The translations under genes and the position numbers were made by a program. From the NCBI GenBank assembly GCA_963575745.1, contig CAUYUJ010015684.1, forward strand, positions 207,304 to 271,303: a stretch of 64,000 bases of DNA, read 5' to 3'. Shown here one piece after another: positions 34,001 through 64,000 of this stretch. The notes beneath the pieces are model-generated. The model was not told the origin of the DNA. It did not search any database and saw only the letters and a program-made list of their open reading frames with translations. Source of the stretch: Prorocentrum cordatum (taxonomy: Eukaryota; Sar; Dinophyceae; Prorocentrales; Prorocentraceae). The number at the start of each line of letters is the position of its first letter. Position 1 is the first letter of the stretch.

Positions 34001-34013
34001 CCCCGACAAACAT

Positions 34014-40659: not shown

Positions 40660-40735
40660 AATACCACCCTTCAAAACGGGTGACTGTAAATGGGTGCATC
40701 TAAACGGGTGAACTTAAACGGGTGAAAAAGCATGA
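40660..40735 (+). repeat. Short TAAACGGGTGAA repeats
   Basis: Four spaced units: AAAACGGGTGACTG, AAATGGGTGCATC, AAACGGGTGAAC and AAACGGGTGAAA. Confidence 0.7.
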
Positions 40736-41384: not shown

Positions 41385-41426
41385 GGCTGGAAATGATCAG
41401 GGGCTGCCTGATCTCGAAGACAAAAA

Positions 41427-45408: not shown

Positions 45409-46016
45409 GGCGATTACTTCTGGATCTCCGTCAACCTCGTCGTCCGACGCAGGTTGTTGGCAGTGCGAACGCGCGCTCGGCGGCGCTCAGCATCATCCCG
45501 AAGAACACGGTGGACAGCCTGCTGCAGAAGAGCCGCGCGCTCCGAGGGGCGCAGCTTCTCACCCGCAGCCTTCAGAGTCGCAGAAGCCGCGGAGCAGCAG
45601 CCATGGTGGTTGCGATACCAAGAAATCAAAGAACGAGTCGAAGTCTAGCATCCTGTACATCGTAACCGAGGAGCACGCCAGATTCCCGCAGGGGCGTCGG
45701 CGGGGTCGACTTCGAAGCGACACGTCCAGCCAGGCACTCGCTGTCCAAGGGCAGCAACACGCGCCAGATGATCAGCACGGCGCGTGGCATAGATCTTGGC
45801 ACGTACCCCAGGGGACTTGCTGATAGCAGAGAGGCGAGAGCGATGAGCAGCACCAGTGGAGCGGCAAGCCTCTAAGAGCTTACGCACGTCATCGCCATGA
45901 GACAGCAGATGAGCTCGTCGCGACGCTTCAGGGGCACGCCTGTCACACGAGAGCACGCACGGGCAGAGCGGGCACTTCCAATCCTTGAGCGTAAGACCCC
46001 AAATACCCAGATTATA
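45409..46016 (-). pseudogene. Zinc-finger C terminus of the ORF1/OTU frame and inter-ORF region
   Basis: After one TAA at 46017 the same reading frame continues as YNLGIWGLTLKDWKCPLCPC, then VLSCDRRAPEASRRAHLLSH (C-x2-C...H-x4-H), and ends at about 45645. A possible small frame (45414-45629) precedes the endonuclease start at 45408. The finger probably belongs to the protein encoded upstream, and the TAA is probably a nonsense mutation. Confidence 0.65.
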
Positions 46017-48025
46017 TTATTGAGTTCGCTGGTGTCGAGCTTCGCGCCGAGAGGCCCAGGACCGCATGATGCCCAGAGCACGAAGCTCAGCGACTCGCTC
46101 AGTACGTGTATTCGAACCCGCCGTGCCTGCCCATGTCGCGCACGAGGCAGCTACGCAGAAACGCTCAGGAGCACACGTGGCCCCATCTCCCAACCAGTAG
46201 CGCGGGCACCGAGAACACTTGACGCCGTGAGGGAGGAGCTCAGGAGAGCAACACCACGGAGTCGTACGTGCGATCCCACGGAGCTGAGTAGCCTTCTGGA
46301 GTCTGGCGGGGCCCCAGTCGATCGGCTGTGACTTCTGTAGTTCAGAATAATAAGCAGCAGGACGTTTGCGAGGGCATATGGCACGAGCACGTTGGACCTT
46401 GCTGTTGGTGAAGGTCGATGCAGCACCTGCCTGTTCGCCCTGAGCGAGCCGAACAGCCTCAGCGTTAGCACGAAGACACTGCAGTGCAAGGCCTGGCGCC
46501 TGCCGCCAAGAGACGGGGGGCCGAGGCGCGAGCGTAGCAGACCGCGTCGTCACCGCCCTCGCCCGCAACGTAGCAGTAGGGGCTCCACCCGAGCCCAAGG
46601 CGACCTGAGGTAGAGTCGCCACAGAAGGAGCGCCACGGGAAGCCGCCCCCAAGGTGCGCGCGGACGCTGGCCGAGCAGGAGGCGTCGGCGCGACTCGTGA
46701 GGATCTCGTCGTTGAAGGTGCTCCGCTGGAAGCCGCTCTCAACGTGCAGGCAGGAGCAGAGCCCGACGAGCGGCCACCGCCCTTGAAGGACCAGTCACGC
46801 AGGTGCTTGCCAGAGTCCAAGGCGCACTGATGACAAGGATCAACTTTTTCGATGTGCTGCCTGCGAGCAGGAGAGCAGGCAGGATCGGCATTATATTCAA
46901 AAGGTTCGTAATGTTTGTCACGGAATAGCATCCATATCAGTCCCTTCCCCTTCCCAATCACAACGGTAGGCTGGCTGGGACGAATGACCACAATCTTCAG
47001 AGCCCACTTGTCAGCAGCAGCAAGGAGATCAAGCTCTCCCATCCACGCGTCGGGCTTCCCAAAGGCGGCTAGGTAGGCCGTCCAGGACGCGCACGGCTTA
47101 CCTTTGGGGTCCATGCGGTCCCAGAGCGGCTCGAGGATAGCGGACTTCTTTTCCATGTGAGCAACAAGTTGAGCACGCAGAGCACCAGGTTCATGGGTAC
47201 TTTTCCAAGCCCGCTTGAACCAGCAACTCAAAGTATGAAAGCCACAAGCTCCATCAGTCGGAACGCTGACGCCCTTGAGGCCCAGAGCATCAAAGGCTTC
47301 CACACTCTTGGTACGATCATCGGCGGCAGGCGCACCAGCGCCCGCTTCAGAAGGAGCAGCAGCTGCATCAGGACTCATCTTCTGGCGCTTCGCAGTCGAA
47401 ACTTCCGTAGCAGTAAGGTCACTGGCAGCAATTGGCGCAGTCTTGTCCGTAGACGTCGCAGGAGGGCCCCAACGCATATCACTCGGCTTGAGATTTCTGG
47501 AACTCTTCGCCTTCGGAGGGGGGCGGAAGGGCTCGAAATTCACGTAATAGTCATGATCGTCACATGATGCACGTACCGTGGCCGCCACATTCGCACCTCC
47601 AGGGTTACAGCCACAGAAGATAAAGGAAGCCTGCCGGGAAGTTGCACGCCGCCGAACGGTGTTCAAGTCAATCTCAGGCCAGCCATTCTCTTTCAGCCAT
47701 TCACTGAAACCGGGGATCGTGATTGAGGGAGGCAAGCCAGAGACCTTCCAGGAAGTCGCATTCGTGCCGCCCACAGAAGCGGCATTGGAAAACGCCAAGC
47801 CCACACATGGTGAAGCCTGCTCTGCCAGCCCACGAGCGCGGGCAAGAAGATCAGGACCAGCTTCCCCGTCGAGACGCTTGACCCACTTGATTTGCCCAAC
47901 TGGGGGCGGAGGAGCACCATCTTGAGGAAGAAGGCGACAGAGAATACCAGCGAGGCCGGTGCCGCCTCCACAGTAGAGACATGCTGCGCTAACATGCGGA
48001 CATTGATAGAGATGATCTCCCCGTC
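46017..48025 (-). pseudogene. OTU-type cysteine protease domain of the non-LTR element
   Basis: The frame is open from about 48025; its first ATG-type start is at 47804. N-terminal part: CGGGTGLAGILCRLLPQDGA and WKVSGLPPSITIPGFSEWLK, the second resembling an RNA-binding segment found in dinoflagellate ORF1 proteins. The central OTU domain reads VSVPTDGACGFHTLSCWFKR (Asp-Gly-Ala-Cys, the OTU Asp and nucleophilic Cys), then ALKIVVIRPSQPTVVIGKGK and MLFRDKHYEPFEY (the late catalytic His). OTU domains cleave ubiquitin-type linkages; in mobile elements they may process the polyprotein, which is inference here. The C-terminal third has CHQC, CCSPELL and HGVKCSRCPRYW clusters, likely zinc binding. 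The frame is -1 to ORF1, with no canonical slippery heptamer that I could see. Confidence 0.75.
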
Positions 48026-49237
48026 TTCAGAACGTCGCGGGCTGAAGAGATCAACAGCTGCATCCTGAGGTAGGTGTAGCGTCCGTAGCCAATCCGTCGC
48101 CGCAACTTTAAAATTGGAGCTGTGCTTCTTCCACGTGGCACGTGTGACGAGGTCCTGGAAGCAAGCCAACCGCAGCACCTTCGTAGCCTGTGCCGTCGGC
48201 AGGGCCTTCCCCGCCTGAGGCTCCCACTTGAGATGGGGAGTCGTGGCACCAAACTGTCGGACAAAAAGGGGCGTCACCCGTAGGACTGCTTTCGAGCCCA
48301 GAGCAGGTGCACGAATTGGGACTGATCCATCAAGCTGCCTGTTCAGGACCACAGTGACCGCTGCGCCCTCAGGGAGCTGATAGCCCAAAAGTCCATCAGG
48401 ATAATGACTGACTACACCCACGACAAAATGTTGTTTCTTCTTAATCGTGAACAACTCATTGAATGCATCCGTCAAGAGCTTGCCGTGCCAGTGGTCATCC
48501 ACCAGCGTCGTGGGCGTGAAGGCGGACGCCTTGCGCACCACTGCCGCATAGTCTGTCTGGTCACCCAATTCAGTAGCTTGAGTTTTCTTAGCAGGAGAAG
48601 CCGATGCCTTAGCTTTAGCCTTCTTAGCAGGAGGAGCTTGAGCTTTCTTAGCAGGAGGAGCCGACTCAGAAAGCTTCCATGCAGCAGCAGCGGCAACAAG
48701 ACGTTGAAGTTGGTCTAATAACTGCGATGCTGTGATGGGAGGCTTGTCCACCTTCGGTGCCATAGCACGGTGAACAGTACGTTGAAGAGCGCCAAGCAGT
48801 CCATCCTCCTTCTTGCGCTCACGCTGGGCCCTCTTGCGCTTGGCCTTAGAGGGGCGCGACGCCGATGGAGCAGCCGAGGGAAGGGTAGCCGATGGCGTTG
48901 ACGAGGAATGGGCACCAAACTTCTCCAACAGGGCCTGCAAGCCCTGCAGCAGCTCCTTTTCCTTGGCCTTGGCGGCCCTGGAGTGTTGACCACCATCACC
49001 CCCACCACCACGCATCAAGGACCCGAGCCGTCGGCTAGATCCCAGAGAGCGTGACGGACGGCCCCACGAACGAGGCCAGGCCAGGTAGAACAGCACGACG
49101 GTCGTCATCACGACGAACACCCAGCACAGGATCTGCAGAGGCTCCAGAGACACCACTGCCGAGGCCCAGTCACAATACTCATATTGAGAGACTGCTGCCA
49201 GCCGTAGAATCCGATAGTACACAGACTCAGAAGACAT
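47960..49237 (-). pseudogene. ORF1 of the non-LTR element with a predicted membrane segment
   Basis: The first plausible ATG is at 49237 (MSSESVYYRILRLAAV). Residues about 30-55 (PLQILCWVFVVMTTVVLFYL) form a strongly hydrophobic helix, followed by a basic Arg/Ser stretch, an Ala-Lys-Glu helix (AAKAKEKELLQGLQALLEKF), KRKRAQRERKKEDG (nuclear-signal-like) and repeated (A/S)PPAKKA(Q/K)A units. The C-terminal part (HWHGKLLTDAFNELFTIKKK...VVLNRQLDGS...WLRTLHLPQDAAVDLFSPRR) is the ORF1 core and continues in the OTU frame after a -1 shift between about 48025 and 47950. ORF1 proteins bind element RNA; a transmembrane segment would be unusual. Confidence 0.65.
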
Positions 49238-49833
49238 AGCCACACCATCCCAGACCAGGAAGGGAGATGAGCACAGGCCTCCGCATAGCAGACATGCAGA
49301 GACACGCTGAGGTAGAAGTCCTCGGAGCAGGAGCTTACGAGGGCGGAGCCGCCACCGACGACGCAGGTCGGGAGCCCGTCCACCACGCACACGCCGAGCA
49401 GCAAGAATGCGCCGCCCGCTCTTCAAGAGATAGCCTCGCCGAAGACGAGATGAATCTGCATATCGATGAGCTGGCACCTGGAAGGTTGGAACCAGTCGTG
49501 CTCGCCATCTGCGAAAGAGCCCCATGCAGACGATGATGAGCACGCTCACGAGGAGGATATTAGGAGAGCTGTTTCCCCTCAAGCCACTCTCAAGCATGGA
49601 TACGAACATAATATGTATCCAACCCCAGACGGCATCCACAGATGGCCGCATAGTAGTAGATGTTGAAGATGTCATGAGCCCACTTGTGCAGGGAAGCAGG
49701 CTCATAATCACGAGGCTCCAGGCCAGGCTCGCAATCCCAGAAGTACGTGTAGTCGAGACTCTTGGCGTCCTCGTCAGACGAGGCCCCGCACTGCGCGTGT
49801 CCCTGAACGGGTCGGACGCGGTCTCCAGCAGGC
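49238..49833 (-). other. 5' region of the non-LTR element
   Basis: Lies between the target duplication and the proposed ORF1 start. Open frames exist but carry no recognised domain. It probably holds the 5' untranslated region and internal promoter, inferred from position. Confidence 0.5.
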
Positions 49834-49848
49834 AATTCACAAACGCAT
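49834..49848 (-). repeat. Target-site duplication, 5' copy
   Basis: AATTCACAAACGCAT on the plus strand, identical to 41370-41384, encoding the AFVN strand of the interrupted RRM. Confidence 0.9.
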
Positions 49849-50344
49849 ATCCGAAATTGCTCGCAGATGCGAAGTTCGTGGGAGGATACAAGAAGTCGAA
49901 CTGCTCCGCGAAGCCCTTGCTGTTAACCAGATCGACCAGCTCGTCACGGATGAGAGTGGTGGGCAGATTGCGCATCAATACCGTGGTCCGCTGGTCGGCG
50001 CTCGAGCCCATTTGATCGTACACCACTCTTGGGACAAAGGCAGCCGCCTTCGCGTTCAAGGGCGTGCGCAGACTGCCCGACTCCTGCCCAAAGAGCGCTA
50101 CATCCAGCTGTAAAGTCTGCACCTGCACGGGACACGTCGCTCCGCTGGAAAGCTCCGCAACGTCCCTGGCATCCTCGCAGATCCGGATCTCCTTTCTGAC
50201 CGATACACTGGAAAACAAGCACGACGAATCGATGCAATCGCTTGGCGTAGGTACATCACCAGGCGCGGTTGCCTTTATCATGAAGGACGCGTCTCGAGAC
50301 ATCGTGGCGTTCGAACAGGCGCACACCACGTTGTTCGGTACCGG
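49834..50344 (-). pseudogene. Mei2-like RRM gene, 5' part before the retrotransposon insertion
   Basis: The minus frame reads DQRTTVLMRNLPTTLIRDEL, VDLVNSKGFAEQFDFLYPPT, then NFASASNFGYAFVN, the first half of an RRM_2 domain (RTT-V-x-R-N-x-P...D-x-L...GF...YDF-x-Y-x-P-x-x-F...N-x-GYAF-x-N). It breaks exactly at the 15-bp duplication. Upstream, RC sequence CTCCTTTTTCAG followed by CCGGTACC is a good 3' splice site, so this is an internal exon starting at about 50344 and 5' exons are elsewhere. N-terminal exon residues (PNNVVCACSNATMSRDASF...) match no domain. The second half of the domain is at 41011-41384. Confidence 0.85.
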
Positions 50345-50449
50345 CTGAAAAAGGAGTTACCAAGCCGTGTGTTATGCTGTCGAGTGGGAAATGTGAGGTA
50401 TCACAGTGCACACGATTTGGACGTCGGGCCCAGCTGGTTGGAGCTAAAC

Positions 50450-50640
50450 TTGAGCCGAAATGGCTACGGAGACCTGTCGAGCTCTCTTGGAGGCCACTTG
50501 AAGCGCTCTTGGGAGCCTGCTGGGACCTGGGCGGAACCCCGGGAGCGGCCAAGAGGGGGGTGTCCAAGAAGGGGGGGTGCAGATCATGACCGGCGGCATG
50601 TGCGCGGCCCAGCGGGGGGGCCTGGGACGTAATGAAACAA
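50450..50640. repeat. Small dispersed GGCCACTTGGAG-type repeat
   Basis: Short stretch of the CTTGGxGGCC family; partly decayed. Confidence 0.5.
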
Positions 50641-50922
50641 GAAGAGGCGCCATAAAATCTGGGGAAATATCATGGCCCGCTCCATGATATCCACCCCCCC
50701 CTAGTCATCACCCCCCTCTTTTCCGCTCCCAGCGGGAACTGCCCGGGATCCTGCCGGGACCTTGCCGGGACTTGCGGGGGTGCTTCTCGTCCCGAGGCCC
50801 CCGGGGGCGGGCCCGCGCGCGCGAGCTAGAGATGTTGTGAACCACTTACCGGGGATCTCAGCACGCCCTTGGCCCGCTGGGCCAGCGAACTGAGACTCGG
50901 GTCCTCCGCTCGGGTGCTGCCT

Positions 50923-50974
50923 TGTATGTTGGGAGGGCGGGTGGGAGTGAGCCCACCCGCCCTCCCAACATACA
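50923..50974. repeat. Perfect 23-bp inverted repeat
   Basis: Arms 50923-50945 and 50952-50974 are exact reverse complements (TGTATGTTGGGAGGG...) around a 6-nt loop AGTGAG. Flanked on the right by a GATCGAGGA array. Confidence 0.95.
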
Positions 50975-51100
50975 TGGATCGAGAAGGATCGAAGATGGAC
51001 GAGGGTGGAGGATCGAGGAGAATCGAGGATCGAGGAGGATCGAAGATCGAGGAGGATCGAGGATCGAGGAGGATCGAAGAGGATCGAGGCCTGGACGAGA
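50975..51100. repeat. GGATCGAGGA minisatellite
   Basis: About ten units of GAGGATCGA(G/A) with register changes. Confidence 0.9.
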
Positions 51101-51234
51101 AGCCCACGGTGGCAAAACTGCACGTTCCTGGATGGGGCGGGCTGTCAGGCCCCCGTCGGCCTCCGCGGGCGATGGGTGGTCGATGCGTCCCACTCGGAGC
51201 CTGTCCCCAGCGTTGAGGCGGCCAGGGGGGCCGA

Positions 51235-51660
51235 ATCGAACTGAGAACCGATAGCCGTGACCGAACCGAACCGAGCCAGAACAAAACAGGAAGGAAAAGA
51301 AGCGAACCGACTTCTCTCAGAACCGAACCAGGGGGAACCGAACCGAACCAAAACCTGAACCGAATCGGAACCGGGTGGCCCTCGAACCGAACCGACATGA
51401 ACCGAACCGGACGTCCCAACCAAGCCCACACAGGACCGCAGACCGACGACCCCCCGTACCCAACCACCGTGGAAGACGACGAGGCGTGAGGCAGCCAGTG
51501 CCGAAGCTTGTGCCAATAACACGAAACGTTTGAACCGAACTGGCAACCGAACCGCCCAAACTGGACCATCTGAAACTGAACCGGCCGGTACGAACCGAAC
51601 TGGCCGATCGAAAGCGGCCCGAACGGCCAACCTGAACCGGTGGAACCGAACCGGTCCCCA
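51235..51660. repeat. Degenerate AACCGAACCG repeats
   Basis: Pentamer GAACC/AACCG clusters interspersed with less repetitive sequence. The 297-301 residue minus frames that cross this region (Arg, Phe, Gly, Ser rich) are compositional. Confidence 0.75.
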
Positions 51661-51900
51661 GGTGCCGCACTCGGAGACCCTGACGCCGCTCTAAGGGACC
51701 CCACGAAACGGCCCAAGAGGGCTCCAGGGCGGCGCAGGAGGGTTCAAGATGGCCCGAAGAAGGCCCCCAACAGGCTCCCCAAAGAGCTTCGCGACGCCCC
51801 CAAGAGACTCCCCAAAGAGCTTCGTTTCGCGACGCCCCCCGACAGAGGAGAGAGGAGTGAGGAGGCAGGGAGGAGGGAGGAGTCTGAAATGACTCTGGTA
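51661..51900. repeat. Dispersed CAAGAGGGCTCC repeat with CCCCAAAGAGCTTCG units
   Basis: CAAGAGGGC-family units, then two copies of CTCCCCAAAGAGCTTCGxxxCGACGCCCCC, and a GGAGGGAGG tract. Confidence 0.7.
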
Positions 51901-52124
51901 GGTCATATTGCATTAAATACCATGTCGAAGGACTACGATATGGGGTGTGGATGAATAAGATAGGATAGGATAAGATCGATGTAGTGATCTTTCCAGCACA
52001 TAGCGAATACCAAGTCAGGTATCCGGGCAAATAGGGCGCGCGTGCCTTGAGCCATAAGGCAGCGACGCGCAGGCTATACTCCCGATTCTCTATCACATCT
52101 CCCAAAGAGCTACCCTTAAAGTCG

Positions 52125-52150
52125 AAAAAAAAAAAAAAAAAAAAAAAAAA
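52125..52150 (+). repeat. A26 homopolymer
   Basis: Twenty-six A on the plus strand between a GATAGGATAGGATAAG-containing AT-richer block and GC-rich element sequence. It could be a retroposition tail on the plus strand, or simply a tract. Confidence 0.9.
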
Positions 52151-52280
52151 CGGAGAGTAAAGCCGCGCGGTCGCTAGGCTCTCGACAGGCGCGCAATTCT
52201 GTTTGCAAGGAAAACAATACACGCAGTCTGGTCAACCACCAGACTGAAGGGCGAGATTATTCGCCGGCGAGTTTCCTCGC

Positions 52281-52515
52281 AAAACTTTTCCACGCGCGCG
52301 CAGGATAGCCCCTCGGATATACAAGGGCTATCGGCCCGGCTAGAGGTAAGCCAAACAGGCTATCCCCCTCCGGGCAAAAGGGTATTAAGGCAAAGAGCCT
52401 GAACCAATCTGAGCAGGCTCGCTGCCAAGCGTGAAAGCATGGCTCGTTTTCGAGCAAGACAGAGGGCGCCCCCGCATTAGGCGCCCGTGCTGGCAAACTG
52501 GACCGCAGGGGCAAC
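52281..52515 (-). other. 3' untranslated/LTR-like region of the large copia-order element
   Basis: Follows the last pol codons. Besides family hairpins it has GATAGCCC...GGGCTATC (52303-52330) and GGGCGCC...GGCGCCC (52464-52486). Whether it is LTR is undetermined. Confidence 0.5.
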
Positions 52516-53160
52516 AAGGACAGACTAAAATTGATTCGACTTAGGTTTGATTTTGTCCTCGGGGCCCCGAAAGGGAACAAACTGCTTCACGTCATACTTA
52601 AATGACTGAGTGCCTGACATCACTTCCAAAAGCAGCTCCCGATCGATACTCCTTCGTATGCCCTTCTGCGGTCATGTCTCTTGTGTCACACCACTGTACG
52701 TTATGCACTATACCTATATCCATGAGCTCACGTAACCAGCTGATATGTCCCAGCAAAGAACGTTCCGTCGGTATCATAAGGTCTTTGCTGGATAACGATT
52801 TGTATACAGACTCAGCGTCTATAGTAAGGGATACTTTGATAGCTAGGCCTCCAACTTCACGCATATCTCGTAGCTGTCGCGGGGTAAGTGCTCCGGCCTT
52901 GAGCTCGTGGAGAGTGATGAGCGTGGGGTAGCATGCATCAAGATTATGTGCAGCTGCAAGTGCCTCAGCGGCATAACTGGACCTCACTTGCGGTCGGTGT
53001 GACTTGCATAGTCCGTCGCAAAGGTGGACGACGGATTTGCCTTGGGGCGAGTTTCCTCGCCGTAATACGTGAGCCCCACGAAGACCGTAGCCCTTGGTTT
53101 CATCGTCCTCCTCCCCGGTGAAATTCCGATACCCCGAATCACTATGTATGTCTACTTCAT
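52516..53160 (-). pseudogene. RNase H and pol C terminus, large copia-order element
   Basis: The open frame begins before its first ATG-like codon at 52987: it reads DIHSDSGYRNFTGEEDDETK (first Asp in HSDSGY), GLRGAHVLRRGNSPQGKSVV (a hairpin-encoded RGNSP), SHRPQVRSSYAAEALAAAHN (catalytic Glu), KVSLTIDAESVYKSL (Asp) and WCDTRDMTAEGHTK (last Asp strand). All four acidic positions are present. After RHSV the frame shifts and ends as KYDVKQFVPFRGPEDKIKPK, a conserved pol tail. It removes RNA from the RNA-DNA hybrid. Confidence 0.85.
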
Positions 53161-54592
53161 GCGTTTCGGGCTGCTGATCAGCTTTCGCGTCACAGCATTC
53201 AGTCGCCTGACTTGTAAGTTAGTGGGCTCTTGGATGTTCTGGAGAGATACCACATACACCATGAGCCAGACTTGAGTAGGAGGGGCATAGGCGAGAGCTC
53301 CTCGCAGGCTAACGAACATGTCGGTGATGAGTTTGGTAGCTTTGGCGTCTGCCGCTGCTCCCGTAAGCTCAGGATGCGTGATAGGACGTAGTTGTTTAAT
53401 AGACTCGTCCTGGTCCATGATCACATCCCCTTGTTCATTCTGCGTGTAGCGAACGGCGCAGTTCGCGTAAGAATGTTGAGCTTACATTTACCAAACACCT
53501 CCTCGACACGTTGTACATAGTCGTCTACGTTTTTTTCTCGAGGCCTGTCATAGTGATGTCGTCGACATGGTTTGCTGTTAACAGATCCTGACTGAATTCA
53601 AACTCAGGATCGTAGCTTGTCGGTGTAAGGCCTATAGCTCGCGTAGTCGCACGAAGCTCGAGGGAGAACGCTCTTGGGGCGTCCTTTGCACCCGTTCCTG
53701 GCTTGAGGCACCTGAGGCAGTGTCGGCTTTCATCATAAGAAGAGAAGCCTGGTAGGGTGCGAAGCACCTGGGCACTTCCTGGTGGAAGTGCGAAGCAAAC
53801 CATGCGAGCTTCCTCGCCGGTGGCATGAGCAAGTTCCTCATTTGTCAGTCCTTTGAGGAACGCTTTGTCGATGTCCATAAATGCTAAGATCCATTCTGGA
53901 TGACATGCCGCCTCACTTGCCAGAAGCCTCTGGGACTGTCTGCGGGCAGTCCCCGAGAAGGTTTCTACATCGAAAGCCTCCGTGTCCACGAATCCGCGGA
54001 GGACAAGTCTAAGACGGATAGTTTTAACATTCTCGGTGCCGATTTTCACAAACTTCGACTTGTATACATATCTGGATGTCATGATGTTGGAAGCTTTTGA
54101 TAGGTCATACATCTCAAAGCATCGGTTGTCAAGCCAGATCTTGAATTCGGTGTACAAGGCTTCACTAACCTCTTTAGGATGTGCTGCTATGTCGGCTTTG
54201 GTGAGTAGGTCGTCTTCCTTGACTACCACAGCACGTTTAGCAGCCGATGATACGTATACTCTCATCGTTGCGACCATGTTTGGTTCGAGCTGTGCAAGTT
54301 GGGTCTGGATCCAACACGATGTTTGACATTTCTGGCGTGAAACATAGCTCGACATAGGGACCGTGTTCATCACTGCCAAGAGAATAGCCCTCGTCAGGTG
54401 TAGTCGATCATAAAGAGACAAGACAGGGCTCTTGTAGTTCAGGCTCGTCCCCGAGCATCTCCGACACAACGGTATCTTCCTCGTCCACAGATGCTGAGAC
54501 CAAGACACATTGGTCGGGCAGCATGGTCGTTGGGACGCAGTAGAGATAGTCGTCGATAACCGTTGTGGGATGAAGGCCCATACGTAACTCAT
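53152..54592 (-). pseudogene. Reverse transcriptase, large copia-order element
   Basis: The 53525-54592 frame gives RVYVSSAAKRAVVVKEDDLL, ALYTEFKIWLDNRCFEM, RYVYKSKFVKIGTENVKTIR, then LRLVLRGFVDTEAFD (the copia RT opening), AFMDIDKAFLKGLTNEEL (palm Asp), CLKPGTGAKDAPRAFSLELR and LLTANHVDDITMTG (catalytic HVDD, both Asp kept). The first 90 or so residues of this frame are a shadow of an acidic linker read in another phase (54408-54746, MDTPSGGPDQPGDRPP...). After a shift at 53525 the thumb/connection continues at 53152-53424 (SIKQLRPITHPELTGAAADA...APPTQVWLMVYVVSLQNIQE). The polymerase motifs look intact although the frame is broken. Confidence 0.87.
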
Positions 54593-54828
54593 CGTACCAC
54601 TCCTCCATCATCATAGCCTCGATGTCGGGTTCCTCGCTTTCTTCGCAGATTGTAGACAGGCGACCTTCACTTGGTGATGAAACACCTGGGGTGTCTGGAG
54701 GAGGCCTGTCTCCAGGCTGGTCGGGCCCTCCAGACGGTGTGTCCAAGTGTTGATACTTGGCAAGGTCGTCATGAAATCCTAGGGAAGGAACTTGCGACGT
54801 CAGGCACTGGATGAGTCTGGAGCGAGTG

Positions 54829-57284
54829 CTACCACTGATTTGAGAGATGTTTCAGGCCGGTGCCTACACACTCAGCATAGTGGAAGGCTGGGTGCACATC
54901 GTTGTCGTAGTGGATCAGTGTAGACCCGGTGGCGTACTTCACTGCAGGTAGATCGAGCACGCTCTTGGCCAATCTCACGGCTACTACGCGCTCAACTCGA
55001 AAAAATAATTTCGTACGAGATACTGCAGTGCAAGGTGCATGCGCGGGTGAAATTTGCTGTCGTCGGAAAGATTGAGGTTTCCCTTGTAGTCTGGAATATA
55101 GCCAAAGACTTGGGCAGGTTTCCCTGCACCAAGGTGTGCCACATATGTAAGGACGGTTTGCAAGGACATGTTGTCCGTGCCAAGCTCCCTGGTGAGAAGG
55201 CATTCAACGTATAGCGTGTGGCGAGCCTCAGGATGCATTACAGTTACCTCACGCGATCCTGCCTTGACGACGACGTGTCCCCGTTGAAGCACGTTACGAA
55301 TCACAGGAAACGGGCCATTCCAGCCTCCATGGTCGTCCTTAGTGGCCGTAGGTCGGCGATAATCGACCAAGTCCCCAGCTGAGTATAGGCAAGCACCATC
55401 TGGGGCCGTTTTAGCCCTGAGGGCACGATTCGTCTTCGCTACCGCCGTGGCTTGAATTATTGCTTCCAGGCTGACTTCCCTCACACGGCGTTCGCGTTCG
55501 TGGCCTGACGTCTCGGGTCCCTTGGGGAAGTCATGGGTGTCGAGGTCAGGAAGGAAAGAGGGCTGTCGCCCAGTGTGTGCTTGGTACGGCGATACTCCGT
55601 TGTAAAACGTGAAAGCGTTGGTGGCGAAGATGCCTTCGGCCAGTACTCTAGTAAATACAATGGGGATGTTGTGTCTGTTCAGCTCTTCCTCAATCATGTG
55701 GAGAGTGCCCCTAAGAATGCCATTGCGTGACTCGATCGAGGTCGCGTGCTGGCCAGGCGCTCGGATACGAAGTGTCGTACCTTTATTCGCCATCATGGCC
55801 TTGGCAGTTTCATTATCGAGGGCACCTTCTCCATCTGAATACGAGACTTTGAAGGGCCCATGATAGGCGATCCAGCAGCAGTGGTAAGCGTCGAGTATGG
55901 TGTCACGTTCTCTATCGGGAATTTCTTGGCCTGCTGTCAGGCGAATACATCGGTCCATAATATGGAATATGGTCCGTTTCTTGTAAAACATGAGATATAC
56001 TTCGCCTTCGGCAAGCCAATTTCCAGGAAGGTTTACGGGAGGTAACGTAGAGTTACCTGGGCGCTCCCATGCTCTACATTCCCGACAAAGGTCGCAGATT
56101 TCTTTGCTCATATTTAGTCGAACGCTATCCAGTCCCACTTTATCTAGGATCAGCCTCATCTTGGGTTCCTTCGCATGATACCACCGTAAGTGCAGTTTGC
56201 GGAGTTCCGTTTGGACTACGTGAGGTTCATGACTACAGAGGTTTTGCAAACTGCGTTGCATGTCAAATCTCGTCCAGTCGGGCAGTCGTGGAACCCCCGA
56301 GCTGGTTGAGGCAAGAGGGTTCCTCGTAGCTCTCCGCAGTCGGTCTCCTTCATCAACTGCATCTGGTGGTGGAGGTATGCCTCGTAAGCGGCCGCGGCGG
56401 GCCGCTACCTGTGGTGGTTCGCCCGAAGACGCGGAAGGCGTGTTTCCACGCTCGGGCGCGTCTCGCAGTATGTCATAACTGCTAGCGCCAGATGTGGGAT
56501 CAATGTTCCCAGAGGCGCGTGGTCGCGGTGGCCTGGCATGAGCACCCTGACGGCCACCCGATGCCGAAGCTTGGCCCTCACCAGGCTTGGGTAAGGGTTC
56601 CCACCGAGCTGGCACACTGCGACCCTCGGGATCATGATCATCTGGGAGTTTGAATGGCTCGGCAACACGGCATTTGCCGGGCTCCGCGTCGAGGTGGTTA
56701 TTAACCCCCTTGCTTCTCGTAAGATCCCTCTGGCATGCAGGGCATGGCCAGTATACAGAGATGGAGTCATGATATGTACACTGTGTAGGATCTCTGTTGT
56801 GGCTGGGACTGTCCTTTCGGACATTGTCGATACATGCTGGGCATGTAGCCACTTTTGGGATGATACGGTCGCCGATGCGTCTCATACCTTCTCCTGGTTC
56901 AGCTTGATCAGGGAGGTCGGCAGGATACGCGTGAGCAGTTCGTGCAGGCGCGTTTCCGCGCGTATTATCGATGGCTTTCGCCGGAAAGACGGCTTCCACC
57001 AAGGCAGACTGCAGTCGTCGAGTGTACTTTTGTGCCAGTGAAAGCTCCTTGTTGCACGGCTGTCCATGCACATGCTGACCGTTGCACTTGAGTCGCTCAA
57101 AAGGTTTAAGAATTGCCTCGTCGTTGCTGGTGATAGTTGTCGGCTTCTTGATATAGTCACCAGACGTATCCTTAAGTCCCGTCGCACATTGGTCGATGCG
57201 TACGGTCGTGATGCGTGGTCGGTCGGCCATTTCTTTCCATGGGGGAATATCGTGCACCCATGTGCCTGTGGGTTGTTCGAGCAT
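54829..57284 (-). pseudogene. Integrase with upstream methyltransferase-like C-terminal part
   Basis: A 767-residue frame (54984-57284). The first 110 residues (WFMLEQPTGTWVHDIPPWKE, TVRIDQCATGLKDTSGDYIK, KPTTITSNDEAILKPFERLK) complete the methyltransferase-like module. CPACID and CPACQRDLTRSKGVNNH form Cys pairs. Integrase follows: LRKLHLRWYHAKEPKMRLIL, ICDLCRECRAWERPG (H-H-C-C type zinc end), AEGEVYLMFYKKRTIFHIMD, VSYSDGEGALDNETAKAMM (second Asp) and RAPGQHATSIESRNGILRGT (catalytic Glu). The first catalytic Asp belongs in E-V-D-x-x-F-Y; here it is TAT (Tyr), one base from Asp. The tail (WNGPFPVIRNVLQRGHVVVK) is the usual C-terminal barrel. At a T6 run near 55010 the phase changes to a frame that continues VERVVAVRLAKSVLDLPAVK and ends at 54829. 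Confidence 0.85.
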
Positions 57285-57397
57285 AAACCACCTCCGTGCA
57301 TTGTCTTGTGTGCCAGCTATTTTACCACAGTACGTTATGTGTGGCTAATGTCTTTGTGGTGTTGTTCCCAAGTGTTATAGTTGGCTTTGCAGTTGTA

Positions 57398-58420
57398 CTA
57401 GGATGGTGGTCCTGTGGTGCGGCAGTTGGGCTGTAGCATGGCTACTCGCACATAGCATACTGCAAAGTAGTGGTCTACAGCTCGCTGCACCGAGGGATCT
57501 CCCAGGTCGACACATGTGGTCTTGTCTAGATTGCCTCCTGAGGAGAGACCCCTAGAGAAGGCAAGCTCTGAAATGCCACCCTCGCCTCCACACAGCTCCA
57601 ACATATCCACGCAATTGTTGTTGCCATAGCATAGAGTAGCCACTATGCTGTATATGTCAGCGTGTGTGTCGGGCATAGATGTGGGGAGGGTAAGGAACAG
57701 GTCATCTTCCTCGTCAGAGCTAATCAGCTCGACAGGGACGTCAGTGCTCCAGGTCGCCATAAGATCCTGTCCGAGTCCTGACAAGTCGTCGCCGCAATCA
57801 TCGTTTCCATCTTCAACGTGCTTTTTGATGCGGCGAGGCTTGATGCCTGCTTCCTTTTCGGCTTTGAGCCTTTCCTTCTGTTTGATACGCGACTCCGTAG
57901 GTAAGACTTGCTCGTCCTGTTCACCGGTCTGTGTGCCCATCGTCGTTGATGAGTGGGTACCTGCAGCAATCGCCAGAGTCGGGAGGGGGGAAGGACAGTC
58001 ATCTATTATGACGCGTCTAGGTTTCTGCGGTGATTGAGCAGGCTCGTTGCCGAGCATGACCGGTTCCTCGGGCTGCCAGTAAATCCGTGTACTGATGTTG
58101 GCAGTCCCTGCAGGTAGTGGCGCATGCCAATCATATCCCGTTGGTTGATCGGCTACTGCGATATCCTGAATAACCGCATTGGTATCCAGGTTAACCGTTA
58201 CACGTCGGATGACATCGGACAAAGTCGGTCCTCCTTTATTGGTCGTCACATAATGATGTATGTTGTGATCCGTACGTGTGTAGGTATTCAAGTATACCGG
58301 CACGTTTCTGTGCGTAGTGTTGCGTTTCCCCAGGATCTTACAATTGAGGTGACGAATGAGTGTGATGCGTGTCTGTGCTCTCCATTCGGCATGTCGTACC
58401 GTTTGGCCGTACCAATCCAA
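57398..58420 (-). pseudogene. Methyltransferase-like module of the large copia-order element
   Basis: The second half of this frame reads SDEEDDLFLTLPTSMPDTHA, then CVDMLELCGGEGGISELAFS (a class-I SAM-binding glycine loop), SSGGNLDKTTCVDLGDPSVQ and RVAMLQPNCRTTGPPS (in the place of the PPC/PC catalytic loop of cytosine methyltransferases). After a TAG at 57398 the same frame continues YNCKANYNTWEQHHKDISHT, and a further shift joins TYCGKIAGTQDNARRWFMLE and EQPTGTW (the place of the E-N-P/ENV strand). Layout resembles C5-cytosine methyltransferases, and such genes have been reported captured by retrotransposons including dinoflagellate ones, but activity is not shown. The first half of the frame is charged and low complexity. 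Confidence 0.6.
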
Positions 58421-58586
58421 GACATGTTGTGGTATCGCCAGTTTGCAAGTACATGTTCATAACTTAGAGCTAATCGGTATTAATGTGGCTACCTGCATAT
58501 ATGTACCACTTGGTGTATTGTCTTGCATATTAACGAAATGACACAGCCGCATCCGTACTACCGTCAACTTAAGATCCTCCAGAGTA

Positions 58587-60535
58587 TCACGTATTGGAGA
58601 CAACTGCCAAACGTATCCTGGGGGGGCCAAACACTAGAATTGTCATGCGGAGCTTCTTGGCCTTCGCGAGAAGGTTCTGAATGCGCGACCAGTGTGGGGC
58701 TACTCTTTTACCTGGTGTCCGCACGTACCAGTCACCCAGGGTACTGACCCATATTAGAGCATAGCCCCCACAACTCACCGCACCCAGATATTCTGCGCCC
58801 ACAGTTGTCATCAGCTCGTTTTTGGAAATACGATCACAAGTATATCCTCGGGTGCGGAGGTCAGCGCAAGCTTCTCTCGTATCTTCGATAACGAAAGCTT
58901 TTTTCTTATGGCAGGTTGCCCTGCTGTCCTTGTTACCCCCTGGCCTCTCGGCCATCAGGCAAGGCGACGAGGGGGCAGCGTCGCCCTGCCATCTTCGGGA
59001 TAAAGAAGATGCGCCTGCCACATCTGCCAGCATCTGAGCTTCTCTCAAGTGCTGGAGCTCTGCACTGCAGCGCGCGGTAGCCTCAGAGGCGGATTGCTCC
59101 GCAAACGCGGCCAGCATGGATGGATTATCCATCAGCTGCTTCAGGAGGCTCTCGACCCTGCGTCGTTGACCGTCTGCAGCTCGTGATTGATTCGTGCACC
59201 CCATCACTATCTTCCGGCGTGTCCTCACAGCATCCGTGGGTACAAGTCCGCCATGCTGGGCCAGTGTCCTGGCTACGAAACAATCAAACGTTTCCAGATC
59301 GTCGATGCTGTCACCTTTCATCGTCGCCTTGGCGAGTATCGCGAGCAGCCCCTGAGGCAGGTTTCCCTGCAGTTGTTGGCGCTCTTGCGCTAGAGGTGGC
59401 TCGCCTGTCAGCACCGTCTGGAACGATGGTGTACCCGTACTTGAGGCGGGTTGCCCCGCGGCTCCAAATCGATCACACCTGATTGACAGATGTCCTGATG
59501 GCAGCTTAGTTGTCGGCATGATCTTGGAGCCCTCGGGGAGTTCCATCTTGACCTGTCCCTTCCCAGGGAATACCAGCTTCTCCTGGCCTCGCTCGAGCAC
59601 AATAATGGCGCGCTTGTCCTGCATACTGTCGAGGCCCAGGATAGCAGGCAGGTCCTTGCCGCAGCCTGACACAATATTAGTCTTGTACGAGTCGAGCTGG
59701 GTCGAGCCCTGGTACTCACAGGCAATGCCGATGGTGCCCACGGTATCAGCTGGGGCCGACCCCTCGCCTACCCCGTTGATGTTCAATCGAGAACGGGGTT
59801 CAGACGTACAAGGACGATTGTGTGCCTCAGCAGCCTGGACGAATTTGCGGCTCGTGTTTCTCCCATTATATTGATATTCGAGCCCACGTCTATGAGGATA
59901 GAATTTCCACCGTCCCCCAGAAACGTCCTGCTCGGCTGCTTTATGTGCACCGCCTCTGACATGCCGGCTGCGCTGTCTGGCGGGTTTCCCCGCATCTCGG
60001 TCGTACCTCCTGGCGGGTTTCCCCGCATCGTGCTGGCACTTGGCCTTCCTGCGGCCATGCGTGCCAGGTCGATGTACTGGAAGTACGACACGTCCTGGGC
60101 GTGGGCGCCCTGTTCCCCCCGCCAGTTAGCATACTCATCGCGTATGCTGGTGTACTGTTCACGAGTGGTGCGTCGCGTCAGCGTGAGATATGAATGAAGG
60201 GCGATGTCTTGTAATCCCTCATTTGTAAGGTGACCCCTGTACTGCAACCACTCGTCGAACTCAGCATTCGTGGCTGAGAATTCAACGGCCCTGACTGCCG
60301 TTGCCGCTGTCGCCACTGAAGAATCTGAGAGGTCAAACGACTCGCTCTCAGGATTATCGGCGTCCAACATGAACGTGGTGTACGCAGTGTCCATCTGGGT
60401 CTGGAAGTGGCGAACACGCAGCTCACGCAGCTGTTCAGGGTCCAGTGGCAGCTCGGCCCCACCTCCACTCTGGGGTGACATCGGAGGAGCCACCTGCCCG
60501 ACTCCAGGCTCGTAGTGAGTTGGAAGGATCGGCAC
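58587..60535 (-). pseudogene. Retropepsin-like protease region
   Basis: The 59783-60535 frame ends RTFLGDGGNSILIDVGSNIN, then IMGETRAAN, an aspartic-protease flap strand with D-V-G where D-(S/T)-G is usual. The 58587-59786 frame continues in another phase: NINGVGEGSAPADTVGTIGI, QLDSYKTNIVSGCGKDLPAI, LGLDSMQDKRAIIVLERGQE, with the second-half pattern PAILGLDSM. The frames overlap by 4 bp, and restoring one phase joins LNINGVGEG. Retropepsins cut the polyprotein into working parts. DVG may be this family's own variant, so I do not count it as damage. The rest of the downstream frame (GRRRVESLLKQLMDNPSMLA...GWYVRT-like) is unassigned. Three or four family hairpins interrupt it. Confidence 0.7.
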
Positions 60536-60708
60536 AGGTGGAGCATTGGGCAGGTACCCTGCTGAGGCGCTGTCATCGGGATAAGCTGTTCGAAGTATCC
60601 CGTCTCCATCGGCGCCCTCACCTCCTCCGGCGGGCTTCCCCGCTGCTGGGGCAGTGCTGCCTGCCTGGCTAGCATACTGGCCGTCATTTCCTCCACCATG
60701 CCCCTCAA
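60178..60708 (-). pseudogene. Linker between RING and protease regions
   Basis: In phase with the RING frame after a single TAA at 60709: LRGMVEEMTASMLARQAALP, QQRGSPPEEVRAPMETGYFE, QLIPMTAPQQG. It then shifts one base into YLPNAPPVPILPTHYEPGVG of the protease frame. The remaining residues of this frame are a shadow. No domain; proline rich with predicted helix. Confidence 0.55.
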
Positions 60709-62541
60709 TTATCGCAGCTCCCTCGCTGCCTGCTCAGGAGCCTGAGTGACGGAGCCGGTCCATGGGAACGACGACGCTACGATGCCTGGCGCTCGGCAGG
60801 TAGCACATACTGGTTGCTGAGGATCTCCTCTTCGCTGATTCGCAACATGGCCCACCACATTCGAGTTCCAGCACTCCTCGTGGAACGGATGGTTGCACCT
60901 CAATCGGTAGATACTCTCCCTCGGCATCAGCTCCTCGAGACATACCGCACAGGCGTCTTCCATCCCAATATAGATTTCCACGTCTGCCGCCCGAGGGCAC
61001 ACTCGCCGCTGCCGCTCCAGAACTGTTTCAGAGCCTAGGAAGGCAGCTGGAGGATCTCCTGCGGGCGTCTGCACCTCCGGCGCTGCGGCGGCCACTACTG
61101 GAGCAGCTGCCGCTGCGGAGGCTGCGGGCGGCACGGCTGGCGAGTTTCCTCGCACGGGTGAGCCTCTGCTCCTCGCGACTTCAAGTGCTGCTGCGCGTGC
61201 TTGGTCACGTACACTCTGCACCGCCTGCCTGCGTCTGAAACGCGCCTGTTGAGTGTGGTACGTCTGCCTGATGTAATCTGGCACTCCCCTACTGCCTGAT
61301 GATATCGAATGGGCAGTAGGCTGGACGGCCACCGCTGGCGTCGTCGGCACAGGCATGAAGGCCATGCGCGGGTACATGGACTGATCGCTGCAGCGCACGT
61401 TCGTGAAGCCATGGAACTGATCCGCCGTCTCGCGAACATATCTGTTCGGGACTCTAGACCCGTCTGGGTACAGTGGCGGATCCATTGGAGCAGGTGCTGG
61501 CCTCTGGCCTTGAGCCATGCTCGGATGAGCATTGAAGGCCGGGATAAAGGCTCGTTGCCGAGCAGGGTCGAGTGGATTCGGACCCTCTGGCTCCCAAGAC
61601 CAGGCTGGTCTCCACCTCTGACCGCTCGGGTGGGGCAGGTTGTGACTCTGCACCTGTTGTACTGCAGCCGCCACCCGTATGCGGTAGTCATCAGGCACCC
61701 CAGTGACGATGTTCTGGTCGGATAGAGGTCGGTGGTGAACTGGAGCACCAGGCGGGTTTTCCCGCAAACTCGTTGGCGTGCCCGGTGGCATCATGCCCAA
61801 AAGAGCTGTACCATGTTCAGCCCTGGCCGCAGCAATTCGCTCCATGAGAGTGCCATTCGTGGCAGACCGACCAGGAGTCCCAAATGGAGACTGTACTGGT
61901 GTTGTCGCCACTGGGGTCATGCCCCTCGGTGTGTGCATGCTGTGCGAGGGGCTCCCTGGCATCTGCTCAAATCGAGCGGGCTCTCCGAAGATGCGGCCGA
62001 ACGTTTGCGGGTCTCCCTGCGGCTCGGGCATGTCGCTCCTGAGTCCGTTAAAGGGCAGGTTTCCCTGCGCGGCCTGGCGGTTGCGTGTCACCATGGCGGA
62101 CATAGCTCCCCGGCCTGCGGCCCAGGGGTCTTGTTGGCACAGTCTGTCCGCTAGCTCTTCCACCTGCTCAGGGTTATGAGCAGCCGCAATCTGATGCAGA
62201 TCTGAGGTGCTGAGGACCTGCCAAGATATGGCACTAGGCCCTTGGCTTGGAGCACGGCTTGGAGCCGCGCTCCCCGCCTCACTCTCGTTGACCATGAGGA
62301 TCTGGTGGGTCTCGGGCAGGTTTCCCAGCACTGTTGGGTCATAGTGGTCCCCCAACTCTCTCTGACAACAAGCCGTAGGAGGCCCATCATCACGACCGAG
62401 AGACATTCTGTGCCCAATACTCGCATTGCCCACCGTTTTCCACCTGCTTGGTGTCGTCATCATGGTAGTGGAACAGCGTGCACGGCGACTACCCAAGTAG
62501 TATGGGTTCCGCCACTGTTTACCTGTGGAGATCTCCTCCAC
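60709..62541 (-). pseudogene. RING-H2 finger in a retroelement polyprotein frame
   Basis: A 610-residue frame, in phase with the KptA-like frame upstream and separated from it by one TAG. The first 500 residues are proline, glutamine and alanine rich with no domain. Near the C terminus it reads MEDACAVCLEELMPRESIYR, LRCNHPFHEECWNSNVVGHV and QQPVCATCRAPG: C-x2-C, C-x-H-x2-H-x2-C and C-x2-C spacing, a RING-H2 finger. RING fingers usually recruit ubiquitin-conjugating enzymes; in a retroelement this could act on host ubiquitination or on polyprotein turnover, which is inference. Six family hairpins fall in this frame, four of them encoding (R/Q/L)GN(P/L/S)P-type peptides and one in another phase (PARQRAF). 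Confidence 0.75.
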
Positions 62542-62553
62542 GTAGTTGATATA

Positions 62554-63762
62554 CTACGGCTCAATAATGCCGTCGACCCCTTCCGATAGCAGCACCCCGT
62601 TGTCGGGCCAGCGGAACTCGATTCCGCCCTTCAAGGCCTGGCGCCAGTCCACCGAGATGATGATCTCGGAATCGGGGTCCCATCCACTCTGCACGTCACG
62701 ACGCCGAAGCGTTGGAACAAAGTGGATGCGTGAAAGGCCAGTCCCTTTCTTCTTGGCGTTGTGTTCTCTGCGGCAGGAAAGGCCCATCCACATGATGCCC
62801 TCAAAGGCTGACCACCTTGTGCCGTGAATGGCAACATCGGGATACGGGGCTGGTCTCCCGGCAGGACTGTCGCGCAGTACAATGTACTTGTACAGCGACC
62901 AAGGGGCCTTGAGCGCCCACGGGTGCCCCTGCGAAGCACGGATGAACAAATCGGCTGCGCCAGAATCACGCATCAGGACCTTGAACTGCAGACGCTGCTT
63001 CTCCTCACCGTCCGCCTCGCGGACGTGGACGATCGCCATCATGATGGCAGCCATCTGGTCGACCGCACTGTCGTAAAAAGTCTCGACGATGATCTTGGCA
63101 TCGTCGCACTTCGGGTCGTACCCGTCATGCCGCGCACCGTCGTTCCAGGGGAACTCGTTTACGAGCTCGTGGAGGTCGATCCATCCATCGTGGTCGTCGA
63201 ACGTCCTCAGCCTCCACACTGGATTGTTCGGTCTGTCAGGCGCGTGCCTACAGATCTTGCTAAGGCACTTACTGAGCTGCTTTAGCTTGTAGTTAGTGCT
63301 AGGAATGATGTTCTTCTGCCTGCAGCTCTCCATAAGCGCCTCGTCAACCGAACGTATCGGTGGAAACTTCCGTAGAGCACGACGATCGTTGATCAACGCC
63401 TGGCTCCCGCTGGTGAAGGAGGCATCGCCTGGGCGGCGCAGCTTGTCCTCTGGCGGGTTCCCCCGCAATTGAGCCTCTGCCCCTGACGAGGCTGCAGCTC
63501 CTGATGATGAGGATGCTGCGGCTGCAGCGCCTGGCGGGTTTCCCCGAGGCGTCTCTCGGCTGGCCCTGCCCTTAAACTTAGGCACCCAGGTACCCCGAGA
63601 CAGAGCGCCCTCCTCGGACGCCTTGGAGCGCGTCGCCACTGGCGAGGCCGGCGCAGGGGTATACCCTGCACGCTCGAACGCCTTGGCCTTGCCGGCGATA
63701 GAGCCACTACGGCTAGGCTGTCGCCTGAGATCTCCAGGGAATCCTGAGGCTGTTGCCTGGGG
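62554..63762 (-). pseudogene. KptA/Tpt1-like RNA 2'-phosphotransferase domain
   Basis: Frame open from 63762; the first start-like codon (GTG) is at 63639. After a low-complexity Ala/Ser stretch with two hairpin-encoded RGNPP peptides it reads LKQLSKCLSKICRHAPDRPN (the LSKxLSxxxRH motif), FDDHDGWIDLHELVNEF (DGW), LFIRASQGHPWALKAPWSLY (R-x-x-QGH), VAIHGTRWSAFEGIMWMGLS (HGT...GL) and GTGLSRIHFVP (the place of R-x-H-(I/V)-H). This is the order and spacing of Tpt1/KptA enzymes, which transfer a splice-junction 2'-phosphate to NAD. The first Arg-His and second Arg are present; the last Arg is uncertain because GLSRIHF aligns with Leu there. It ends at TAG 62554, beyond which the same frame continues as YINYVEEISTGKQW. 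Confidence 0.78.
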
Positions 63763-64000
63763 TCAGGTCTCTGCGCAGGCATTGCTCGAGTCGGTGACTG
63801 CGGCACTTCGGAGAGGGGCCTCCCCATCTGCACATCGAACCCGTGCTCCTCTGAGCGGGTAGAAACTTTCTGTCTTTCACCCGAAGGCGCCCTAGGTTCA
63901 CGGGTCTCGCTTATGGCCTTCGAGATCGTTGGGGGCTTCTTTCCTTCAGCATGTGACTCCAGCAGCATTCGGCGAGTTGCCTCGCGGGCGCGCTCTTCTG
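63763..64000 (-). pseudogene. N-terminal polyprotein segment, different phase
   Basis: The 63393-63968 frame begins MLLESHAEGKKPPTISKAIS and is Ser, Pro and Arg rich. It probably precedes the KptA-like frame after a one-base shift. The hairpin at 63972-63985 lies just outside it. The element runs off the window. Confidence 0.45.

Follow-up and report, generated by a model that had tools for sequence, protein, structure and literature searches.

In a 64-kb stretch of the genome of the dinoflagellate Prorocentrum cordatum (contig CAUYUJ010015684.1, positions 207,304 to 271,303; hereafter the window), we found that a family of short tetraloop hairpins is arrayed along a region that makes up most of a decayed copy of a long terminal repeat (LTR) retrotransposon of the Ty1/copia type, an element of ~16 kb. 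The array is a real, strand-specific and family-specific set of hairpins under selection at the nucleotide level. The hairpins almost certainly work at the RNA level, mainly because they are restricted to one strand, because their stems and the third codon positions within them are constrained, and because the codons of the AGxPA peptides that coincide with them in a sister family of elements are strongly biased.

A pattern scan of the window revealed 26 perfect GCNNG-NNNN-CNNGC hairpins, 24 of which fall within 52267-63985, with the other two at 22880 and 25567. The 24 perfect hairpins in 52001-64000 compare with 0.39 expected from 100 dinucleotide shuffles, confirming the hairpin family that an earlier note, made from the letters alone, had proposed for this region. 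Those with a GNRA loop number 18 on the minus strand, which is the coding strand of the element in 52001-64000, against 0.02 expected and a maximum of 1 in any shuffle; the same scan found no GCNNG hairpin with a GNRA loop on the plus strand of 52001-64000 and none on either strand in the remaining 52 kb of the window (five stretches). The six other perfect hairpins of 52267-63985 have the loops GAAG (two), AAAA (two), ACAG and GACA, and five further GNRA-loop copies with one mismatch lie there on the minus strand. The count first given, 26 hairpins with 21 GNRA loops, is thereby adjusted to 24 perfect hairpins with 18, or to 23 of 29 when the one-mismatch copies are included. The variety of stems, with different inner pairs and matching arms, was found as described, and so were the three codon phases (xGNyP, AGKPA and GEEAR/GEETR) and the presence of the motif beyond pol, where the hairpin GCGAG-GAAA-CTCGC (52267..52280, minus strand, as are all features of the window copy given below) lies in the 3′ untranslated region. 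The confinement to one retroelement held inside the window; genome-wide, the element is a many-copy family, accompanied by a sister family with another loop. No Rfam match reached the gathering score in 52001-64000.

The strand restriction was observed in every copy scanned. Hairpins combining a GCNNG stem with a GNRA loop lay on one strand in 30 of 30 loci (L003-L032), with 0 on the other, and the stretches scanned in the copies C15, C2 and C56 and in the sister element on C1 contained 35, 34, 33 and 26 perfect hairpins with GNN[AG] loops in sense orientation and 0 in antisense. Along the sense RNA the array comprises ~35 perfect copies, begins shortly behind the 5′ LTR and stops just short of the 3′ LTR, occupying coding and non-coding parts alike. 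In the C15 copy (C15:570740-586840), a 16.1-kb element bounded by an LTR match of ~235 bp (95.7% identical), the LTR match is devoid of such hairpins and the first hairpin follows ~220 nt behind the 5′ match. In the 3′ untranslated region (L033-L038; window 52251-52280), two adjacent 16-nt hairpin-like units are present in the C15 and window copies and one in the C2 and C56 copies.

The consensus is a 5-bp stem GCNNG/CNNGC with a G-C closing pair, a GNRA (more broadly GNNA) loop and usually an unpaired C after the stem. In the C15 element 32 of 35 hairpins have a C directly after the stem and 4 of 35 a G directly before it, so the 3′ C is mostly unpaired and the stem mostly limited to five pairs. 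Swapping the G-C closing pair hardly altered the predicted energy (-8.6 vs -8.5 kcal/mol), and its preference is thus not accounted for by model stability. Local folding of the C2 hairpins gave mean probabilities of 0.83 and 0.95 for the sense strand and 0.64 and 0.76 for the antisense strand. The hairpins of the C2 copy are more evenly spaced than random positions (coefficient of variation 0.60 vs 0.98, a value attained by a fraction of 0.0002 among 5000 random placements), and no periodic spacing was detected (best resultant 0.37 vs a random mean maximum of 0.42).

Conservation was measured at nine sites in 30 aligned copies, which share pairwise identities of 0.83-1.00 among the 29 other than that of the window. 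All nine sites were common to the 30 copies, with the stem perfect in 26-30 copies each, and 1330 of 1345 pair cells were Watson-Crick; the loops were GAAA (190), GAGA (39), GCAG (25) and a few others. Nucleotide diversity was 0.011 in the stems, 0.048 in the loops and 0.116 in the flanks, and diversity at third codon positions was 0.020 inside the hairpins (20 columns) vs 0.185 outside (761 columns). No missing segment was seen at any of the nine sites in the 30 copies. A strand test based on wobble pairs carried no information (5 G-U/U-G vs 4 A-C cells).

Because the nine sites had themselves been found as hairpins, we added a directional test in which the hairpins of the C2 copy (n=32) were traced into the C15, C56 and window copies. 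In C15, whose flanks are 82% identical to those of C2, 29 of the 32 sites aligned (two gave no alignment and one a gap); 24 of them kept the stem, two were broken and three had changed in both arms (GCTCG/CGAGC to GCTGG/CCAGC, GCGAG/CTCGC to GCGGG/CCCGC and GCAGG/CCTGC to GCGGG/CCCGC). The ten corresponding positions were kept in 18 of 121 random 14-mers vs 24 of 29 hairpins (Fisher p 5e-12). Tracing into C56 gave 28 identical, one compensated and three broken stems, and tracing into the decayed window copy gave 19 identical, one compensated and four mismatched stems, three gaps and five sites without alignment. Pooled over the three comparisons, 14 stem pairs had changed, five of them on both sides, all to Watson-Crick pairs and at four distinct sites, while 36 of 488 changed pairs did so in a control of random pseudo-pairs. 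Compensation is present and in excess, though most stem changes are one-sided, and the case for function rests mainly on constraint and strand rather than on covariation within sites.

A sister family of elements carries a comparable array with another class of loop. Its representative (C1:2045383-2061818; LTR match of 289 bp, 98.96% identical) encodes KptA, RING and RVT_2 domains, the same unusual set as the window family, and its Gag has a basic tract and a CCHC motif which, read by eye, resemble those of the window family; over 1.7 kb of pol the two share 66-68% DNA identity. In 13.7 kb scanned, 26 hairpins were present, all sense, 21 with a GCGGG stem and 22 with a GNCA loop (GCCA 12, GTCA 7, GACA 2 and GGCA 1), and a stretch upstream held four more hairpins with the GCGGG stem. 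In the sister stretch read (L118), 19 of 21 AGxPA peptides are perfect hairpins; their first codon is GCG in 21 of 21 cases vs 84 of 310 elsewhere and their fourth is CCC in 19 of 21 vs 41 of 284, and the third base of the fifth codon, one position outside the stem, is unconstrained.

Sites of the two families were compared by reading a MAFFT alignment by eye, since automatic flank alignment had failed (of 32 sites, 30 were unalignable, one was broken and one was a gap). At two homologous sites both arms differ, the sister family having GCGGG-GAAA-CCCGC for the window's GCAGG-GAAA-CCTGC (55114..55127, AGKPA phase) and GCGTG-GCCA-CACGC for its GCGAG-GAAA-CTCGC (53047..53060). At alignment column 2092 the sister sequence is ungapped and has no hairpin; at column 1183 it lacks both the hairpin and a clean alignment, with a 12-base gap just upstream. 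Genome-wide counts for GCGGGGNCACCCGC were 16,925 vs 995. The GCGGGGNCACCCGC places listed (on C1, C2, C83 and C159) include four elements with tandem hairpins in 2, 3, 3 and 4 copies 30 nt apart, and similar arrays spaced by 24 and 18 nt; such arrays, present also in L118, differ in copy number between copies of the sister family. It looks as though hairpin number changes by local tandem duplication, here and in the 16-nt units of the 3′ untranslated region.

Genome-wide counts were made on an assembly of 4.13 Gb in 21,875 contigs. A search with a 786-aa polyprotein query gave 34,801 first-look candidates, out of which 57 matches were selected and scored, so that the window family has at least 57 copies. 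The pattern GCNNGGAAACNNGCC occurred 24,693 times (12103+12590), in contrast to 1,663 times (829+834) for a reversed-pattern control. Among the first 100 GCNNGGAAACNNGCC places listed, pairing was found in 75 of 78 clustered places, in 6 of 10 in groups of 2-4 and in 1 of 12 isolated ones. An equal density of the motif in the rest of the genome was not found, the paired sites concentrating in clusters. With ~20 GCNNGGAAACNNGCC sites per element (19-21 in four clusters among those listed), the excess over the control corresponds to a family of probably about a thousand element equivalents.

Eleven related proteins from other sources (P0003 and P0008-P0017) were read for the same signal at the protein level. 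When their [RQHLP]G[NDHY]xP peptides were read as hairpins, 9 of 10, in five of the 11 proteins, fitted complementary stems, or 8 of 9 after one of two near-duplicates (P0009/P0012) was dropped, HGNLP of P0011 being the peptide that did not fit. Six further.G[ND].P peptides, whose first residue cannot be encoded by CNN, were left out of this count (DGNMP, NGDVP and GGNLP of P0008, AGDAP of P0009 and P0012, and DGDQP of P0016). The hairpin GCAGG-GAAA-CCTGC at 59357..59370 encodes QGNLP in the window and faces HGNVP in P0003, the difference expected from a two-sided stem change; protein identity in this region is 43%. The hairpin GCGGG-GCAA-CCCGC at 59446..59459 encodes AGQPA and faces AGKPA in the same protein. 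Judged from these peptides, the feature probably reaches beyond this genome and is not universal. No match to viral contigs was obtained with the integrase-region query. None of 33 viral-contig pattern matches from the integrase-region alignment was confirmed, and the exact 15-mer GCACGGAAACGTGCC in viral contigs marked 78 loci, 77 with one such hairpin and one with three, which is about chance.

The proteins encoded by the element bear on what might read the hairpins. A reverse transcriptase of the RVT_2 type (PF07727) is present in both the window and C2 copies and also in the sister family; in the window its piece, of Ty1/copia type by Pfam, spans 53525..54607. The preceding polyprotein piece (54984..57344), which served as query in the paralogue search, is taken as the integrase region by position alone, as it has no Pfam match at 1e-3. 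It is followed, towards the start of the polyprotein, by a piece without a Pfam match (57398..58456) and by a piece with a protease region recognised by eye (58587..60125), which shares 43% identity with P0003 across 278 aligned positions; the protease-like piece of the C2 copy, also read by eye, is LIDVGSKINIMG. Pfam further identified a RING finger in 60709..62553 and a Tpt1/KptA RNA 2′-phosphotransferase domain in 62554..63762 (E-values 3.1e-20 in the window family and 9.3e-15 in the sister family). No homologue of the 614-aa RING piece was found at E <= 0.001 among 8000 candidates scored. Both sister families share an arrangement that is unusual for a copia-type polyprotein, a Tpt1/KptA domain with a RING finger after it (62554-63762; L118:1-6813). 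The Gag of the C2 copy contains a CCHC motif and a long arginine-rich tract.

The restriction to one strand, the loop class, the closing pair, the following base, the even spacing and the family-specific loops together point to a reader protein encoded by the element, and each hairpin is a predicted binding site for one such RNA-binding protein. The likeliest candidate reader is the nucleocapsid part of Gag, in which the CCHC zinc knuckle adjoins the arginine-rich tract. Gag would recognise, coat and package the genomic RNA of its own element by way of many sites instead of a single packaging region, and the differing loop classes of the two families would allow each Gag to select its own RNA. 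That the hairpins are dispersed Gag binding sites for coating or packaging the element's own RNA is a proposal we hold to be evenly balanced between true and false. Somewhat short of that, and offered tentatively, is the joint proposal that sister families sharing a genome each have a tetraloop code of their own along the length of the genomic RNA (GCNNG-GNRA-CNNGC-C and GCGGG-GNCA-CCCGC), maintained across coding regions and multiplied through tandem duplication, with the result that each Gag may package only its own RNA.

Several observations weigh against these proposals. The basic tract and knuckle of Gag look alike in both families despite their different loops, which by itself leaves the loop switch unexplained; Gag is no more than a candidate reader, beside other proteins of the element or the host; and the knuckle of the C2 Gag is a weak match, its Pfam zf-CCHC score of 19.4 bits being below the cut-off of 20.8. 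Six of the 11 related proteins (P0008, P0011 and P0013-P0016) have no xGNyP-type peptide fitting a hairpin, and P0013-P0015 have no.G[ND].P peptide at all. Local folding of the sister hairpins gave a mean probability of 0.32, with 5 of 20 above 0.5, perhaps through cross-pairing of neighbouring identical arms. Finally, 9 of the 14 changed stem pairs were one-sided and uncompensated, in comparisons that include decayed copies. On the question whether stems drift without compensation, raised by the earlier note as a check, the outcome is divided: the stems hardly drift and five of the changed pairs were compensated, and these nine were not.

Support for the earlier note's reading of the hairpins as an RNA element used by the retroelement comes from their single strand, the kept sites, the ten-fold lower diversity of stems, the constrained synonymous positions, some compensation and the separate loop class of the sister family. 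The same RNA-level evidence (strand, constraint, AGxPA codons and compensation) would fit equally well if the hairpins bound a host RNA-binding protein, or acted without protein in RNA stability, export, translation or escape from silencing. Hairpins in coding and non-coding parts alike also favour this, and GNRA folds are recognised by many RNA-binding proteins (PMC12027372). We nevertheless regard it as unlikely, though deserving of attention, since two sister families in one genome with different loop classes are unexpected for a single host protein, and since 1 paired place among 12 isolated matches (a small sample from the first 100 listed) gives no sign of host genes sharing the signal. 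Less likely again is a service in RNA cleavage and repair, for example at sites cut and then re-joined with help from the element's own Tpt1/KptA, or in reverse transcriptase pausing or strand transfer. A KptA domain is present in the polyprotein of both hairpin-bearing families, and for KptA domains in polyproteins of RNA viruses a part in RNA processing or repair has been proposed (PMC9503650). On the other hand, what is required of the outer pairs, the loop and the base that follows resembles recognition rather than a generic block, and none of the nine sites aligned in 30 copies showed a missing segment. To our knowledge, no enzyme of the KptA repair pathway uses such a tetraloop hairpin, which also counts against this role.

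The suggestion, also made in the earlier note, that a mobile mini-hairpin inserts itself while preserving frame was not supported, and we consider a selfish unit of this kind very improbable. The unit is short and uniform, and its tandem number does vary (2, 3, 3 and 4 at 30 nt in the sister family, and one or two of the 16-nt 3′ untranslated units). Against insertion, the nine sites examined are common to 30 copies and perfect in 26-30 of them, 11 of the 12 isolated places among the first 100 listed are unpaired, and the sister sequence at column 2092 is ungapped; no clean dispersed insertion appeared in the 30-copy and sister alignments, the few gaps of the C2-based pairwise comparisons not having been inspected singly. 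An origin in chance, codon bias or a repeated peptide, without nucleic-acid structure, is favoured by the sister GCGGG hairpins, which lie mostly in AGxPA (19 perfect), and by xGNyP as a common phase in the window family. It can practically be dismissed, as the hairpins occupy three phases and untranslated sites, shuffles gave 0.02 where 18 were observed, the codon bias falls on stem positions and is absent from the base just outside, and third codon positions are nine times less variable in hairpins than elsewhere.

The remaining hairpins of the window copy were located as follows. The scan and the 30-copy alignment both include GCTCG-GGGA-CGAGC (54443..54456), GCCTG-GAGA-CAGGC (54704..54717), GCGTG-GAAA-CACGC (56438..56451, RGNTP phase), GCGCG-GAAA-CGCGC (56948..56961, RGNAP phase) and GCTCG-GCAA-CGAGC (58042..58055, LGNEP phase). 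Within the reverse transcriptase and in the GEEAR phase lies GCGAG-GAAG-CTCGC (53804..53817), a site whose stem is perfect in 29 copies, 26 of them with a GAAA loop; the non-GNRA loop of GCCTG-ACAG-CAGGC (55929..55942) is GCAG in 22 of the 27 copies whose stem is perfect there, and the damaged hairpin GCACA-GAAA-CGTGC (58300..58313) is perfect in 26 of 30 copies. Three other copies, C2, C15 and C56, have the loop GAAA at GCTCG-AAAA-CGAGC (52442..52455) and retain the GACA loop of GCCAG-GACA-CTGGC (59260..59273), and GCGGG-AAAA-CCCGC (61752..61765) is GCAGG-GAAA-CCTGC in the C2 copy. The scan also located GCAGG-GCAA-CCTGC (58911..58924), GCGGG-GAAA-CCCGC twice (59980..59993 and 60013..60026), GCGGG-GAAG-CCCGC (60630..60643), GCGAG-GAAA-CTCGC (61140..61153), GCTCG-GCAA-CGAGC (61550..61563) and GCAGG-GAAA-CCTGC (62055..62068), and the one-mismatch scan GCAGG-GAGA-CCCGC (62007..62020), GCTGG-GAAA-CCTGC (62316..62329) and GCCGG-GAGA-CCAGC (62849..62862). 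Both GCGGG-GGAA-CCCGC (63453..63466) and the one-mismatch TCGGG-GAAA-CCCGC (63534..63547) encode RGNPP. The array does not end with GCGAG-GCAA-CTCGC (63972..63985): the copy continues past the window with more hairpins, the last of them at 67399 in the extended contig. No 5′ LTR was seen for this copy; a stretch of 2500 N starts at ~67501, about 100 nt past its first hairpin on the 5′ side. Its 3′ LTR match (51883..52122) is 81% identical to the 5′ LTR of the C15 copy.

Adjoining the copy at 40001-52000, on the same minus strand, is a different element resembling a long interspersed nuclear element, with RVT_1, endonuclease/exonuclease/phosphatase and RRM_2 domains and a weak OTU match under the cut-off; the same scan found no such hairpin array in it. 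Window positions 1-12000 contain 84 hairpins with five-bp stems and four-base loops vs 13.8 expected, none of the GCNNG type, which are perhaps tandem repeats. Very strong GC skew marks two 2-kb stretches, 18001-20000 (-0.58) and 34001-36000 (-0.64).

Searches of one open-access library, at the level of titles and opening lines of abstracts, yielded no description of such a hairpin array in a retrotransposon, which is weak evidence of novelty. We know of no retroelement with a multi-site packaging code. Mobile GC-rich hairpins occur in mitochondrial genomes and in-frame palindromic elements in Rickettsia; these too are short palindromic units tolerated in genes, but they are dispersed mobile units, whereas the hairpins described here occupy fixed sites on one strand. 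In phage lambda, the arginine-rich motif of N binds the GNRA fold of boxB (PMC12027372). Short stem, GNRA-fold loop and a candidate arginine-rich reader, here in the element's Gag, are common to both; boxB differs in its pentaloop, its U-A closing pair and its function.

Gamma- and alpharetroviruses have packaging and dimerisation hairpins with GACG tetraloops (PMC516450). These are likewise tetraloops in the genomic RNA of a retroelement, presumably read by Gag. The retroviral hairpins are few and lie in a defined region, in contrast to ~35 along the RNA with GNRA or GNCA loops here. For Ty1 and Ty3, which are LTR retrotransposons whose Gag recognises cis-acting RNA sites, the packaging sequences are described as not clearly defined, with a possible contribution of scattered sites, and the accessible text of that source mentions no repeated hairpin family (PMC4974528). 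The way in which the Gag of LTR retrotransposons selects the RNA of its own element is poorly defined, and the present families offer ~35 natural replicate sites per RNA in many copies, together with a sister family whose different loop is a built-in control of specificity, making the question directly testable. They also present a nucleotide code overlaid on a protein code in three phases. There is a further parallel with single-stranded RNA viruses, MS2 and others, for which dispersed packaging signals have been proposed: many stem-loops with one recognition feature, spread through protein-coding genomic RNA (PMC6281560). The motif described here is stricter, in its outer pairs, closing pair, loop class and following base, its carrier is an LTR retrotransposon and its binding by capsid protein is putative; if true, it would extend the idea of dispersed packaging signals from RNA viruses to retroelements.

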